A stretch of DNA of 55,298 bases from Acidobacteriaceae bacterium (lineage in GTDB: Bacteria; Acidobacteriota; Terriglobia; Terriglobales; Acidobacteriaceae), in the NCBI GenBank assembly GCA_903970395.1, contig CAJCIM010000100.1, positions 1 to 55,298 on the forward strand. The letters run 5' to 3'. Both the position numbers and the translations under genes were made by a program. Positions 21,851 through 25,642 of this stretch are shown in pieces. Position 1 is the first letter of the stretch. Each line of letters begins with the position of its first letter. The notes under the pieces were generated by a model. It saw nothing but the letters and a program-made list of their open reading frames with translations. It did no database searches and was not told the DNA's origin.

Positions 21851-22660
21851 ATGACCGAGTTGGAGAGAGCCTATAAGACGCGCGGCGATGAACTCGATGA
21901 GAGAAATGCACTCATCCTGCAGGAGCTTCCGCAGGTCTACTACGTAGCGGCACGTATCCGCGAACGGCTCCCACAGCATGTCGAGCTGGAAGATCTTGTC
22001 AACGCTGGTGTACTCGGGCTGATCGAAGCCTGTGCGAAGTACGACGGCTCCCGCAACGCCGGTTTCAGCACATTCGCAAAGTTCCGCATCCGTGGCGCCA
22101 TCCTCGACAGTCTGCGTAGCCTCGACTGGGGCTCGCGTACTCTGCGGCGGCGGGGTCGGGCGATCAGCGCTTCGGCATCGAAGTTGACCGGCACATTGGG
22201 CAGGCTGCCACTTCAAGAAGAGATTGCCGCCGATCTCAATGTAACGCTCGAGGACTTTCATCAAACTCTCACGGAGATCGACGGCCTGAGTCTTGTCAGT
22301 CAAAAAGCCCAGAGCCCGGACGACGCGTCGGAATCGTTTGACCTGATCGAGTCCGCCGAGAGCCGCGGCGACGACAACCCCTTCGACCTCTGTCTTGAGT
22401 CAGAGATGCGTGAGCATCTCGTCGAGGCATTGCGCAGCTTATCCGAGCGTGAGCAGATGATTCTCGCTCTCTACTATCAGGAGGAACTCACGATGCGGGA
22501 GATCGCTGAAGTGCTTGACGTCGGTACTTCCCGCGTCTCGCAGATTCTCTCCGCCACTTTGGTAAAGCTACGTGCGGGATTACAACATCTGCGGCACGCA
22601 TCTTCTGGTGTGGCCCCAAATAGTAGAGCCGAGCCTATCTACGTGAGGTCGCATCCGTGA
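21851..22660 (+). CDS. fliA: flagellar sigma factor σ28 (FliA)
   Basis: FliA/WhiG-type sigma factor (269 residues) that directs transcription of filament genes. Region 2 is clear (VELEDLVNAGVLGLIEACAKYD, FSTFAKFRIRGAILDSLRSLDW), region 3 follows, and region 4 ends with LYYQEELTMREIAEVLDVGTSRVSQI. AAAGGAG precedes the ATG by eight bases. Its partner anti-sigma factor FlgM is encoded at 29367, and σ28-like promoters occur before flgM and fliC. It overlaps fliM by GTGA. Confidence 0.96.
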   Translation: MTELERAYKTRGDELDERNALILQELPQVYYVAARIRERLPQHVELEDLVNAGVLGLIEACAKYDGSRNAGFSTFAKFRIRGAILDSLRSLDWGSRTLRRRGRAISASASKLTGTLGRLPLQEEIAADLNVTLEDFHQTLTEIDGLSLVSQKAQSPDDASESFDLIESAESRGDDNPFDLCLESEMREHLVEALRSLSEREQMILALYYQEELTMREIAEVLDVGTSRVSQILSATLVKLRAGLQHLRHASSGVAPNSRAEPIYVRSHP

Positions 22661-23607
22661 GCACGAACGATCCTATCGTTGAATCGCCATCCACAAGGCG
22701 CGCTCCACGTCATGCGTCCGATCCTGTGGTCCACCCATGTAACTTTCGTTACGCAGGTCGTCTGTCCAACGAAAATACACGCGCACTCTCTTCTCTCTTC
22801 GAAAAGTTTGCAGTCAACGCGTCGAACGCCCTCGAAGCCTATCTTGGAGCCGCATTGCGACTCAAGCTTACATCTATAGAACAGTCCACAATTCGGGGCT
22901 ATCTCGAAGCCATTCCCCTCGATAGTTACCTGGTGCCCTGCACGCTCAGCGTCATGCAGACCAGCCTCCTTACGCAGATGGACTTGCCACTGGCGCTGCC
23001 GATCATCGATCTGCTTCTAGGCGGGGTGGGCACTCCTTTGCCGAGTCTGCGCGAACTCACCGACATTGACGAAGAGATCCTGGAGAGTGTGTCCGCGCTC
23101 TTTCTCCGCGAGATTGAATCTCTGTGGTCTGCCCTCAGTCTCACCTACCGGCTCAGAAGCTGCATCCGTCCAGCATCTGTACCGGTCCTCTTTGGCACGA
23201 ATGAGAAGGTTGTCATCCTGCTCTTTGAGATGGAGATTGCAGGTGTCGTGGGAGGCTTTCGTATAGTGCTGCCAACGTCCTTCGTCGGTTACCTCATCCG
23301 TCACCTGAACGCGTCGCAAGCTGCCAAGCTGTCTGGCCGTCGTGACGACCATCGTCCTACGCTTCGTCAGCGAATTCTCGAATGCCAGTTCACCCTCTCA
23401 GTCGACGTCACACAAATGCGGGTGATGGTTCGGGACCTCATCTCGCTTGAGCCAGGACAGGTCATAAAAATGCGTGCTCCTGTAAAGAACGCAGGAAGGC
23501 TCACGGTAGAGGACACCGAAGTGTTTCACGCTACACCAGTTCGCAGCGGACTTCAGAAGGCCGCCCAGGTACACTCGCAACCCTTGGATTCAGCGCCATT
23601 CAACTAA
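22657..23607 (+). CDS. fliM: flagellar motor switch protein FliM, no CheY-binding peptide
   Basis: FliM (316 residues) builds the C ring with FliG and FliN. The CheC-like middle domain spans about 28-215 (CNFRYAGRLSNENTRALSSL; LPLALPIIDLLLGGVG) and a SpoA domain spans about 230-295 (FTLSVDVTQMRVMVRDLISL, GQVIKMRAP). The usual N-terminal CheY-P-binding peptide of the LSQxEIDALL kind is missing: the first 25 residues are a Pro/Arg-rich stretch without it. The GTG start overlaps the fliA stop, and no coding extension upstream is available. Confidence 0.9.
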   Translation: MSTNDPIVESPSTRRAPRHASDPVVHPCNFRYAGRLSNENTRALSSLFEKFAVNASNALEAYLGAALRLKLTSIEQSTIRGYLEAIPLDSYLVPCTLSVMQTSLLTQMDLPLALPIIDLLLGGVGTPLPSLRELTDIDEEILESVSALFLREIESLWSALSLTYRLRSCIRPASVPVLFGTNEKVVILLFEMEIAGVVGGFRIVLPTSFVGYLIRHLNASQAAKLSGRRDDHRPTLRQRILECQFTLSVDVTQMRVMVRDLISLEPGQVIKMRAPVKNAGRLTVEDTEVFHATPVRSGLQKAAQVHSQPLDSAPFN

Positions 23608-23625: not shown

Positions 23626-23940
23626 ATGCCTATGTCTTCAAGCCAGGACGCCGAAAACCTGGGAGTCATTTTGAATGTCGAACTCGAAGTCACCATGCGA
23701 TTCGGCCAGCGTCTGATGACTTTGCGTGAGGTTCTCGAACTTTCCAGTGGCGCCGTGATCGAACTCGACCGGCAGGTGGATGAGCCCGTAGAACTGCTTC
23801 TAGATGGAAAGGTGATCGCATTGGGGGAGGCCGTTGTCATCGACGGCAACTACGGTTTTCGCGTCACCGAGGTCCCCGGGGCTATTCTCTCGCAGCCCGC
23901 TGAAATGCCTGCAGACAGCGGTGAGAGGAGCGACGCATGA
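23626..23940 (+). CDS. fliN: flagellar motor switch protein FliN
   Basis: Typical FliN (104 residues): LNVELEVTMRFGQRLMTLREVLELSSGAVIELD then PVELLLDGKVIALGEAVVID and NYGFRVTEV. It completes the C ring with FliM upstream. GGAAGGA stands before the ATG. It has no N-terminal extension. A second FliN-like gene lies at 16025. It shares ATGA with the following MshEN-like gene. Confidence 0.95.
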   Translation: MPMSSSQDAENLGVILNVELEVTMRFGQRLMTLREVLELSSGAVIELDRQVDEPVELLLDGKVIALGEAVVIDGNYGFRVTEVPGAILSQPAEMPADSGERSDA

Positions 23941-24806
23941 GGCTGCTTGAACAATTCGGAGCTTCGGAATGGGTTCGCGGCTTCAGGCCCGTCAACTGCG
24001 GCAACGAAACGTGCAGCCGATGGCTGACTGAGCGTCAACTCAGTGTGCGCAGGGTTGGCGTCTCCATGGGCGCCACGTGGTGGTGTAGCTTTCGCTGCGT
24101 CCGCACCAGTCTCGAATCGCAACTCAGCAGGCTTTTTTCACCACGTCATCATCGAACACAGGCGGCTGCACGCACCTCATTTGGCTTGACACTTCTCCGC
24201 CAGGGGCTGCTCACAGACTCCCAATATAGAACTACTCTCGATGTGCAACGTAGCGCCGGTGAAGAAATTGGCGAACTTGTGGTGCGTCTGGGGTTCATGT
24301 CGGAGCAAGCAGTTACAGAGTGCCGAGCGCTGCATTGGGCGTGTCCTATTTTTCCCAGCGCTCCCAGTGCATGCGGTGAGATGATCCGTATCCCATTTCG
24401 CTTGCGTCGCGATTACTCGATGGTGCCTCTATACCATCTCGCCTCTGGCAACAAGCTATTCGTAGGCTTTCAGTACAGCGTCGAATATGCACCTCTGTTT
24501 GCCATCGAGCAGATCAGCGGTTGCAAAACCCAACCCTGCTTTATCTCGCCATCGGAGTTTCTCGCTGCCGACTGCCTCGCGGAGCAGGTGATCGCAAATG
24601 CAGAGCAGAGCTTTGAAGATCTGAACACCGTAGCCGAGATGACACAGATCATCTGCGAGATCGGCCGTGCCACGGATGCGGAACGAATCGCCATCGCACG
24701 TTGTGGAGACAGGCTCTGGTGTCGTCTGAACCAAGGTGCGAAGACCACCGATATTCTCTTCCGGGTCGCCGGATCCTCATCAATCTCTCAGTTCCGCAAA
24801 ATGTAA
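23937..24806 (+). CDS. stand-alone MshEN-like (GspE N-terminal) protein with Cys motif
   Basis: No flagellar family recognised. The 289-residue protein starts with a Cys-bearing segment (C21-x4-C26 and C50-x3-C54, possibly a metal site), then has two tandem units of MshEN/T2SSE_N type: F82-G83-x2-L-x3-G90 running to Q104, and I111-G112-E-x-V-x3-G119 running to W134. A following MVPLYHLASGNKLFVGFQYS and ISGCKTQPCFISPSEF match the rest of that fold. MshEN domains bind cyclic di-GMP, but the usual leading Arg of the RLG motif is replaced in both units. No ATPase domain follows. Translationally coupled to fliN, so a role as a motor or flagellar-gene modulator is a reasonable guess. Confidence 0.65.
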   Translation: MRLLEQFGASEWVRGFRPVNCGNETCSRWLTERQLSVRRVGVSMGATWWCSFRCVRTSLESQLSRLFSPRHHRTQAAARTSFGLTLLRQGLLTDSQYRTTLDVQRSAGEEIGELVVRLGFMSEQAVTECRALHWACPIFPSAPSACGEMIRIPFRLRRDYSMVPLYHLASGNKLFVGFQYSVEYAPLFAIEQISGCKTQPCFISPSEFLAADCLAEQVIANAEQSFEDLNTVAEMTQIICEIGRATDAERIAIARCGDRLWCRLNQGAKTTDILFRVAGSSSISQFRKM

Positions 24807-24904: not shown

Positions 24905-25642
24905 ATGAACAGTGGCTTCTATGCAGCCTGCACGGGCCTGATGTCGCGCATGGACGCGCTTGATACGATCGCAAACAACCTTGCCAACTCCAGCACCAAT
25001 GGTTTTCAGGCTCGACATAACGTCTTCAACTCCATACTCGCATCCACGGATAACGCGTCCTTGTCGGCATTGAATCAGGATATGAACGACTACGGTGTTC
25101 TCAGCGGCACCGCGCTCGATCCATCACAGGGATCATTGCAGCGGACGGGGAATCCGTTGGATGTTGCGATCCAGGGACAGGGCTACTTCGCTGTCCAGCG
25201 TGATGGTGCGGAACTTTACACGCGTTCGGGCAACTTTCGTGTCTCTTCGTCGGGCCAACTCGTTACGGCGAGCGGCGACCCTGTGCTCGGAGCCAAAGGG
25301 CCGATCCAGATCGTAGGATCTCCACTCTCCATCAGCGCCGATGGCACCATCTCGGTGAACGGAGCCATCGCCGGACAGCTGAAGCTCGTGGACTTTCCGC
25401 CGTCGGTACAGCTGCAAAACGCAGGCACGACGTATCTCAGTGCCCCATCCAACACCGCAACCCCCACAGCCAACGCCGTCGTACAGCAGGGAATGCTCGA
25501 GAGCTCGAATGTGAATCCCGTTACCAGCACGGTGGAGATGATAGGCGCGCAACGCGATGTCGAGACGATGCGCCGGGTTCTGAGCATGTTTGACAGTGAC
25601 ATGAACAAGATTGCAGTGCAGGATCTGCCCCGCGTCAGCTAG
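24905..25642 (+). CDS. flgF: flagellar proximal rod protein FlgF
   Basis: FlgF (245 residues), a rod protein. N-terminal motif: GFYAACTGLMSRMDALDTIA, NNLANSSTNGFQ; central GYFAVQRDGAELYTRSGNFRVSSSG; C-terminal LESSNVNPVTSTVEMIGAQRDVETMRRVL. I place the start at ATG 24905, with AGGTGG six bases upstream, rather than at earlier in-frame ATGs that lie before the σ54 transcription start. Followed by flgG, with which it shares architecture. Confidence 0.94.
   Translation: MNSGFYAACTGLMSRMDALDTIANNLANSSTNGFQARHNVFNSILASTDNASLSALNQDMNDYGVLSGTALDPSQGSLQRTGNPLDVAIQGQGYFAVQRDGAELYTRSGNFRVSSSGQLVTASGDPVLGAKGPIQIVGSPLSISADGTISVNGAIAGQLKLVDFPPSVQLQNAGTTYLSAPSNTATPTANAVVQQGMLESSNVNPVTSTVEMIGAQRDVETMRRVLSMFDSDMNKIAVQDLPRVS

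Follow-up and report, generated by a model that had tools for sequence, protein, structure and literature searches.

Flagella are among the chief targets of cyclic di-GMP; the textbook connection between the two is through PilZ proteins, with YcgR acting as a PilZ-type flagellar brake. MshEN (GSPII) domains, known as cyclic di-GMP sensors in other proteins, belong to the ATPases of type IV pili and type II secretion systems, such as MshE, PilF and PilB. In MshE, the contact and motif positions are R9, L10, G11, L25, L29 and Q32, followed by R38, L39, G40, L54, L58 and Q61, with R38 and L58 in the half-motif responsible for holding the second guanine, as given in the available sections of PMC5013675. 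According to the available part of PMC12002112, the GSPII-A domain of Thermus thermophilus PilF does not bind cyclic di-GMP and deviates at Q32, R38, G40, L54, L58 and Q61, and restoring the full consensus did not by itself bring binding back. The GSPII-B domain from T. thermophilus is described, in an excerpt of PMC11731258, as not relying on arginine.

Here, we describe gene X, located in the flagellar locus of an Acidobacteriaceae bacterium; the window is the whole stretch of 55,298 nucleotides that was analysed. Its product has the same fold as the MshEN/GSPII ATPases over both subdomains, shares their two 24-residue half-motifs and runs colinearly with PilB, perhaps as far as the point where the N2 domain begins. 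Unlike these ATPases, X has no ATPase domain, carries a zinc-finger-like part and lies in a flagellar locus, and the copy in the window is without half of the contact residues. Like the YcgR-type brakes, it would be a cyclic di-GMP effector on the motor, by analogy only, as it differs from them in having no detectable PilZ domain. The switch-associated proteins CheC/CheX/FliY and FliN share a cluster with X in part of the loci but are absent from its sequence and fold matches; a relation to them is possible. The closest parallel to the window copy is PilF GSPII-A, an MshEN fold reported not to bind cyclic di-GMP, whose lost residues include the second Arg and the closing Gln of half-motif II; GSPII-A differs in belonging to a large ATPase and in being blocked also by subdomain contacts and by an elongated, N-capped helix 1 (available part of PMC12002112). 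We found no description of a flagellar-locus zinc-finger-MshEN gene among the papers listed from the open-licence PMC literature; the MshEN protein in the accessible portion of PMC12943098 is a GspE. If the pocket is largely intact in most lineages seen, such a conserved gene placed after fliN and before the rod genes would be a second, unrelated cyclic di-GMP route to flagella.

Gene X and its domain architecture

The window holds a large flagellar cluster. Pfam matches back fliF, fliG, fliH, fliI, flgD, fliO, fliM, flagellin, fliD, motA, motB and flhA, and the fliK match was under the cut-off; fliP, fliQ, fliR, flhB and a sigma factor, as well as flgF, flgG, flgA, flgH, flgI, flgJ, flgM, flgN, flgK and flgL, were named from translations and gene order. 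On the forward strand, fliM (22657–23607, Pfam FliM, 3.6e-21) is followed by fliN (23626–23940, Pfam FliMN_C, 2.3e-22) and then by X, an ORF at 23937–24806 that encodes 289 aa (P0001). The ATG of X shares four nucleotides (23937–23940, ATGA) with the TGA stop of fliN, an overlap that suggests coupled translation of X and FliN. After a gap of 98 nt comes flgF (24905–25642, forward strand), identified from sequence, ORF and synteny; its mechanical ORF begins at TTG 24701, within X, and ATG 24905 is the likelier start. Because orthologues were found in 18 further relatives and dN/dS is 0.10–0.15 within the window's clade, X is a real coding sequence. The window FliN has 104 aa, and the FliN of a number of relatives carries an N-terminal extension of ~150–190 aa (e.g., L044:13717-14526, L034:10202-11020 and L106:3123-3881); in the two extended proteins scanned, from L034 and L044, Pfam matched FliMN_C at the end only.

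The MshEN relation of X was invisible to Pfam with a single protein and could be seen only through a family profile. A Pfam scan of window X alone yielded no family at E ≤ 10, neither MshEN nor an ATPase, and a genome-wide Pfam search for MshEN matched a single frame of 552 aa, which was not X. When X was aligned with its 18 orthologues, the resulting profile matched the solved structures of T. thermophilus PilF (6f8l, 5.6e-42) and Vibrio cholerae MshE (5htl, 3e-14) and those of three further PilB types (2e-18 to 8e-17). The NCBIfam model c-di-GMP_motif (NF053729) matched 19/19 orthologues, with window X alone reaching 3.1e-8 and 33.3 bits, under the curated cut-off of 38, and Pfam MshEN matched 12/19 at E ≤ 1.

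An AlphaFold model of X built from 19 sequences (mean pLDDT 83.9, pTM 0.80) agreed with the profiles. Using VIA-align, residues 79–216 were placed on MshE-N (5htl_B) with a Z score of 11.9 and an rmsd of 2.8 Å over 134 aligned residues. The first 19 rows of a Foldseek search were MshEN/GSPII domains, the sole rows with E ≤ 0.001; the best match was T. thermophilus PilF GSPII-A (PDB 9g1w, 6.3e-9), and others were PilB-N from its complex with PilZ and GspE from its complex with GspL. No PilZ domain was found in X by Pfam, and the model matched MshEN, not PilZ. Based on the model and hhalign, the MshEN domain covers residues 79–218 (24171–24590, forward strand) and consists of the four helices of MshEN_N and the alpha/beta subdomain MshEN_C.

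When 27 X proteins were set against ten PilB/GspE-type ATPases from Acidobacteriota by hhalign, residues 75–266 of X were colinear with PilB 35–254 (99.8%, E 2e-28). The homology stops near PilB residue 254, and the RecA-like ATPase domain is absent. X thus resembles the first half of a pilus-type ATPase preceded by a zinc-finger-like part, and we infer that it was derived from a protein of the PilB/GspE type, leaving out the ATPase itself. The original prediction had described a stand-alone protein of the GspE/MshE N-terminal type, coupled to fliN and lacking an ATPase, and the ORF boundaries, the profiles and the structural match to MshE-N all agree with it. What it had taken for two MshEN units are the two half-motifs of one MshEN_N, followed by a complete MshEN_C and a C-terminal piece, and its Cys pair motif proved to be not one pair but two.

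The zinc-finger-like N-terminal part covers residues 17–66 (23985–24134, forward strand; Cys codons at 23997, 24012, 24084 and 24096). In the model, the region around its pairs, C21-x4-C26 and C50-x3-C54, forms short strands and one helix. All four Cys are invariant in 68/68 aligned rows (67 distinct genes, as L045 and L056 carry an identical gene) and kept in 79/80 further loci, the remaining one, L149, being cut by a contig end. Judging by this residue pattern, the part is likely a zinc finger, possibly treble-clef-like. No convincing relative was found among solved structures: the nearest was the YNG1 PHD finger (E 0.0086), followed by weaker matches to CW and MetAP1 fingers. The VIA-align rows barely cover residues before 53, and hence we make no claim of a new fold for this part.

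The C-terminal piece, beta-alpha-beta-beta-beta in the model, spans residues 222–278 (24600–24770, forward strand) and contains an invariant W261 and a near-invariant R263. Among 19 PilB segments compared with it by hhalign, those at the start of N2 were the best (P 0.0011 and 0.0017) and the remaining ones had P 0.18 or worse; the hhalign probabilities at the N2 start were only 21% and 16%, and that for whole PilB was 3.3% (E 0.013). Given its position and P value of 0.001, with a probability of 21%, the piece is possibly a remnant of the start of the PilB N2 domain. A glyoxalase-like match of the same piece was set aside, the structural match being weak (Z 4.3).

The cyclic di-GMP pocket and its change in one clade

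Pocket residues were scored at the 12 MshE positions, with K counted for R and I, V or M counted for L. In the alignment, half-motif I (MshE R9–Q32) corresponds to residues 81–104 (24177–24248, forward strand) and reads S81, F82, G83, G90, Y97, L101 and Q104; half-motif II (MshE R38–Q61) corresponds to residues 110–133 (24264–24335, forward strand) and reads E110, I111, G112, G119, V126, R130 and H133. The complete double motif RLG..Q / RLG..Q is thus not found in window X, which scores 6/12 and deviates at S81, F82, Y97, E110, R130 and H133; five of these are the replacements L10 to F82, L25 to Y97, R38 to E110, L58 to R130 and Q61 to H133.

Most relatives retain most of the pocket. Scores were 12/12 in 16 of the 68 rows, 9–11 in 44 and 5–7 in eight, the last being the window and L031–L037; the 80 further loci scored 10–11. 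As yardsticks, 10 of 11 PilB proteins scored 11–12 and one scored 9. The commonest deviation among relatives was a Pro at the first Arg (43/68 rows), which is also the usual residue in the window's own family, f1. Since the restored consensus was not enough for binding in GSPII-A, a high motif score is no proof of binding in the relatives of X.

When 68 X and 10 PilB rows (78 in all) were placed in a tree with IQ-TREE, the eight rows of low score fell into a single clade (UFBoot 100, SH-aLRT 96), and the pocket loss is therefore best read as one event. All eight combine E110 with R or K at position 130, and neither residue occurs in the other 60 rows; the Glu-Arg/Lys pair may fill the place of the second guanine in this pocket-less clade. 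By sequence comparison, the degeneracy is local and confined to the window's clade. The original prediction had reasoned that nucleotide binding may be lost because the leading Arg is missing from both units. Both Arg are indeed missing (S81 and E110), yet this is a weak sign alone: R79, two residues before the start of half-motif I, is Arg in 58/68 rows, and arginine is not what GSPII-B relies on according to the excerpt of PMC11731258. R130, H133 and Y97 appear to be the stronger signs. The suspected loss of binding would hold for window X and its clade, as far as the residues indicate, and would not extend to 60/68 rows and the 80 further loci.

Purifying selection goes on in the pocket-less clade. 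For L034/L035, dN/dS was 0.15 at dS 0.60, and pairs with L036 gave 0.10–0.12, where dS was higher and less reliable; the ratio was 0.05 for one pocket-bearing pair and 0.30 for another. Synonymous sites were saturated between the window and L031, and the dN/dS of the clade rests on three other members.

The source genome, in an assembly 94.7% complete, encodes two GGDEF domains and one PilZ protein, and no EAL domain was found in it at E ≤ 0.1. The sole PilZ protein (~136 aa) lies on another contig and, by reading, adjoins a response-regulator-like ORF. Such scant cyclic di-GMP machinery fits a loss of sensing and is silent on a role in motility. Across genomes, pocket-less ones had 1–17 GGDEF hits (median 4, n = 8) vs. 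4–25 in pocket-bearing ones (median 8, n = 11), with a p-value of 0.052 that ignores relatedness and includes two pocket-less genomes whose completeness is only 54% and 59%. That a lost pocket goes with a low GGDEF count is suggestive, and the separation is not clean: genomes G017 and G027, with 13 and 17 GGDEF genes, are contrary to it.

Neighbours of X and its possible role

Gene neighbourhoods were compared in 148 loci (the window, L031–L048, L056–L104 and L105–L184), a few genes being counted twice, e.g., L045/L056. Loci L105–L184 are the best 80 of 118 relatives from a collection scan with a narrower alignment, in which the pattern HR[VI]PLGL[VLT][LM][LVM] finds one type of X only and says nothing on other phyla. 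Conservation beside fliN, on which the original prediction depended, was extensive: fliN was the nearest recognised flagellar gene 5' of X in 144/148 loci, with three of the four exceptions (L096, L126 and L149) starting at contig edges and the fourth, L104, lying elsewhere. A start codon of X lay no more than 30 nt away from the stop codon of fliN in 121/142 measurable loci. The order fliM-fliN-X was found in 18/18 relatives with X, including L047 and L048, where X was missed by tblastn with the window protein and located by ORF. In distant loci the gap is wider, and one or two genes lie between fliN and X in the three examined (L088, L090 and L093). The gene L104:7746-8570 has the same zinc-finger and MshEN architecture with a 12/12 motif in a non-flagellar setting, with neighbours read as secD, secF, yajC and tatD and with flhA on another contig.

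On the 3' side, cheY was the next recognised gene in 60/148 loci, followed by cheX in 55 of these 60, and the order cheY-cheX-flgF was seen in 50 loci among L105–L184 (e.g., L106:4920-5897). An HDOD gene was among the nearest recognised genes in 11/148 loci. In the window's clade, either an HDOD gene (L032 and L034–L037) or no recognised gene takes the place held by cheY-cheX in others. Pfam identities were checked on one cheY, one cheX and two HDOD examples, and in many loci the available stretch ended, or had no recognisable gene, before flgF.

The explanation that we favour, with belief and doubt in about equal parts, is that X is a lineage-specific protein of Acidobacteriota that serves as a cyclic di-GMP effector at the flagellar switch or the export gate, and that its dependence on the ligand was lost in the window's lineage. 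With the pocket largely intact in most lineages seen, X probably binds cyclic di-GMP. The zinc finger or the C-terminal piece would then relay the ligand state, either to the switch (FliM/FliN, CheY) or to the export gate that lies behind the switch; the motor would be slowed or biased, or assembly held back. In the window's clade, a fixed Glu and Arg-or-Lys pair took the place of the pocket, most simply in a single event, and the docking role would most likely be kept in one constant state in which cyclic di-GMP is no longer read. The genes around X, with fliM, fliN and often cheY and cheX, are in keeping with the earlier idea that it may brake the motor or regulate assembly. If window X cannot bind cyclic di-GMP, it is not itself a YcgR-like ligand-driven brake, a role that would apply to its pocket-bearing relatives. 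More tentatively, and with doubt outweighing belief, X may represent an undescribed class, the first of its kind in the literature searched: an MshEN-type cyclic di-GMP receptor of the switch or export gate, made from the front half of a pilus-type ATPase and a zinc finger, in which a salt-bridge-like Glu/Arg pair in the window's clade replaces the second guanine and locks one state. The pocket-less clade offers a ready comparison for the role of X without ligand and, if this proposal is true, shows a natural ligand replacement.

The main rival to a role at the switch is one at the export gate, which we consider somewhat unlikely. X would dock either on the flagellar type III export machinery or on the C-ring while it forms, in the way that the N-terminal domains of GspE and PilB dock on partners of their own machines, and would gate rod and hook export, not rotation. 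The structural matches from the PilB-N/PilZ and GspE/GspL complexes are in line with such docking, and window X directly precedes the rod genes flgF-flgG. Furthermore, a small-protein gene like L090:7810-8229 or L088:8938-9327 lies directly 5' of X in 16/148 loci. Both examples have a hydrophobic start, read by eye, and the L090 protein weakly matches DUF2802/DUF6115, which we take to be of the SwrB type; SwrB activates flagellar export in Bacillus. These DUF matches, however, are under the curated cut-offs, the L088 protein has no Pfam match, and wherever genes were recognised before flgF on the 3' side of X, cheY and cheX were the commonest, in favour of rotation. The same two genes would suit X as a chemotaxis adaptor that partners the neighbouring CheY and CheX and tunes CheY-P signalling at FliM/FliN, with cyclic di-GMP secondary. 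MshEN fusions with CheA and CheX are also reported in the available sections of PMC5013675. Yet X is retained where cheY-cheX was not found beside it, namely in the window, in its clade and, apart from L092, in the distant loci, and this makes the adaptor improbable.

That window X is a decaying remnant without function is the least credible reading by far. The pocket is degenerate and the nearest relative only 44% identical, but the reading frame, the four Cys, W134, W261 and R263 are kept, and the identical two substitution sites are fixed in 8/8 clade rows. Decay is also largely contradicted by the dN/dS of 0.10–0.15 among the three other clade members.

Distribution of X among flagellated relatives

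X is almost restricted to FlhA-bearing genomes. Among 61 relatives, it was found in 19/24 genomes with FlhA vs. 0/37 without. Of the five FlhA-positive genomes without X, three (G018, G039 and G054) have fliN but no X, and the loci of G045 and G052 stop at contig edges. In the flagellated congener L050 (G018), X and the sigma factor gene are both missing from an otherwise conserved flhA-fliM-fliN-flgF stretch.

In a phylum sample of 396 genomes, FlhA was detected in 127, and X in at least 56 among the matches listed: in 55 the match included the N-terminal part, and in G267 a contig edge truncates the gene. The X and FlhA draws were taken as one set, their handles agreeing. FlhA was present in 55 of these 56 genomes, one of them being G304, whose X (L104) lies outside the flagellar locus; the exception, G392, has fliM and fliN and no FlhA hit. 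Among the matches listed, X was missing or too divergent in 72/127 FlhA-positive genomes, 25 of them from family f32, and X is thus not a general flagellar part. In family f1, it was found in at least 34/36 FlhA-positive and at least 1/8 FlhA-negative genomes among the matches listed. Records with X include those of the cultured species Terracidiphilus gabretensis, Acidipila rosea, Granulicella rosea and Edaphobacter lichenicola, which makes X open to experiment. Two loci titled Rhodanobacteraceae, L164 and L176, show the acidobacterial fliN-X arrangement and perhaps come from misnamed or mixed bins.
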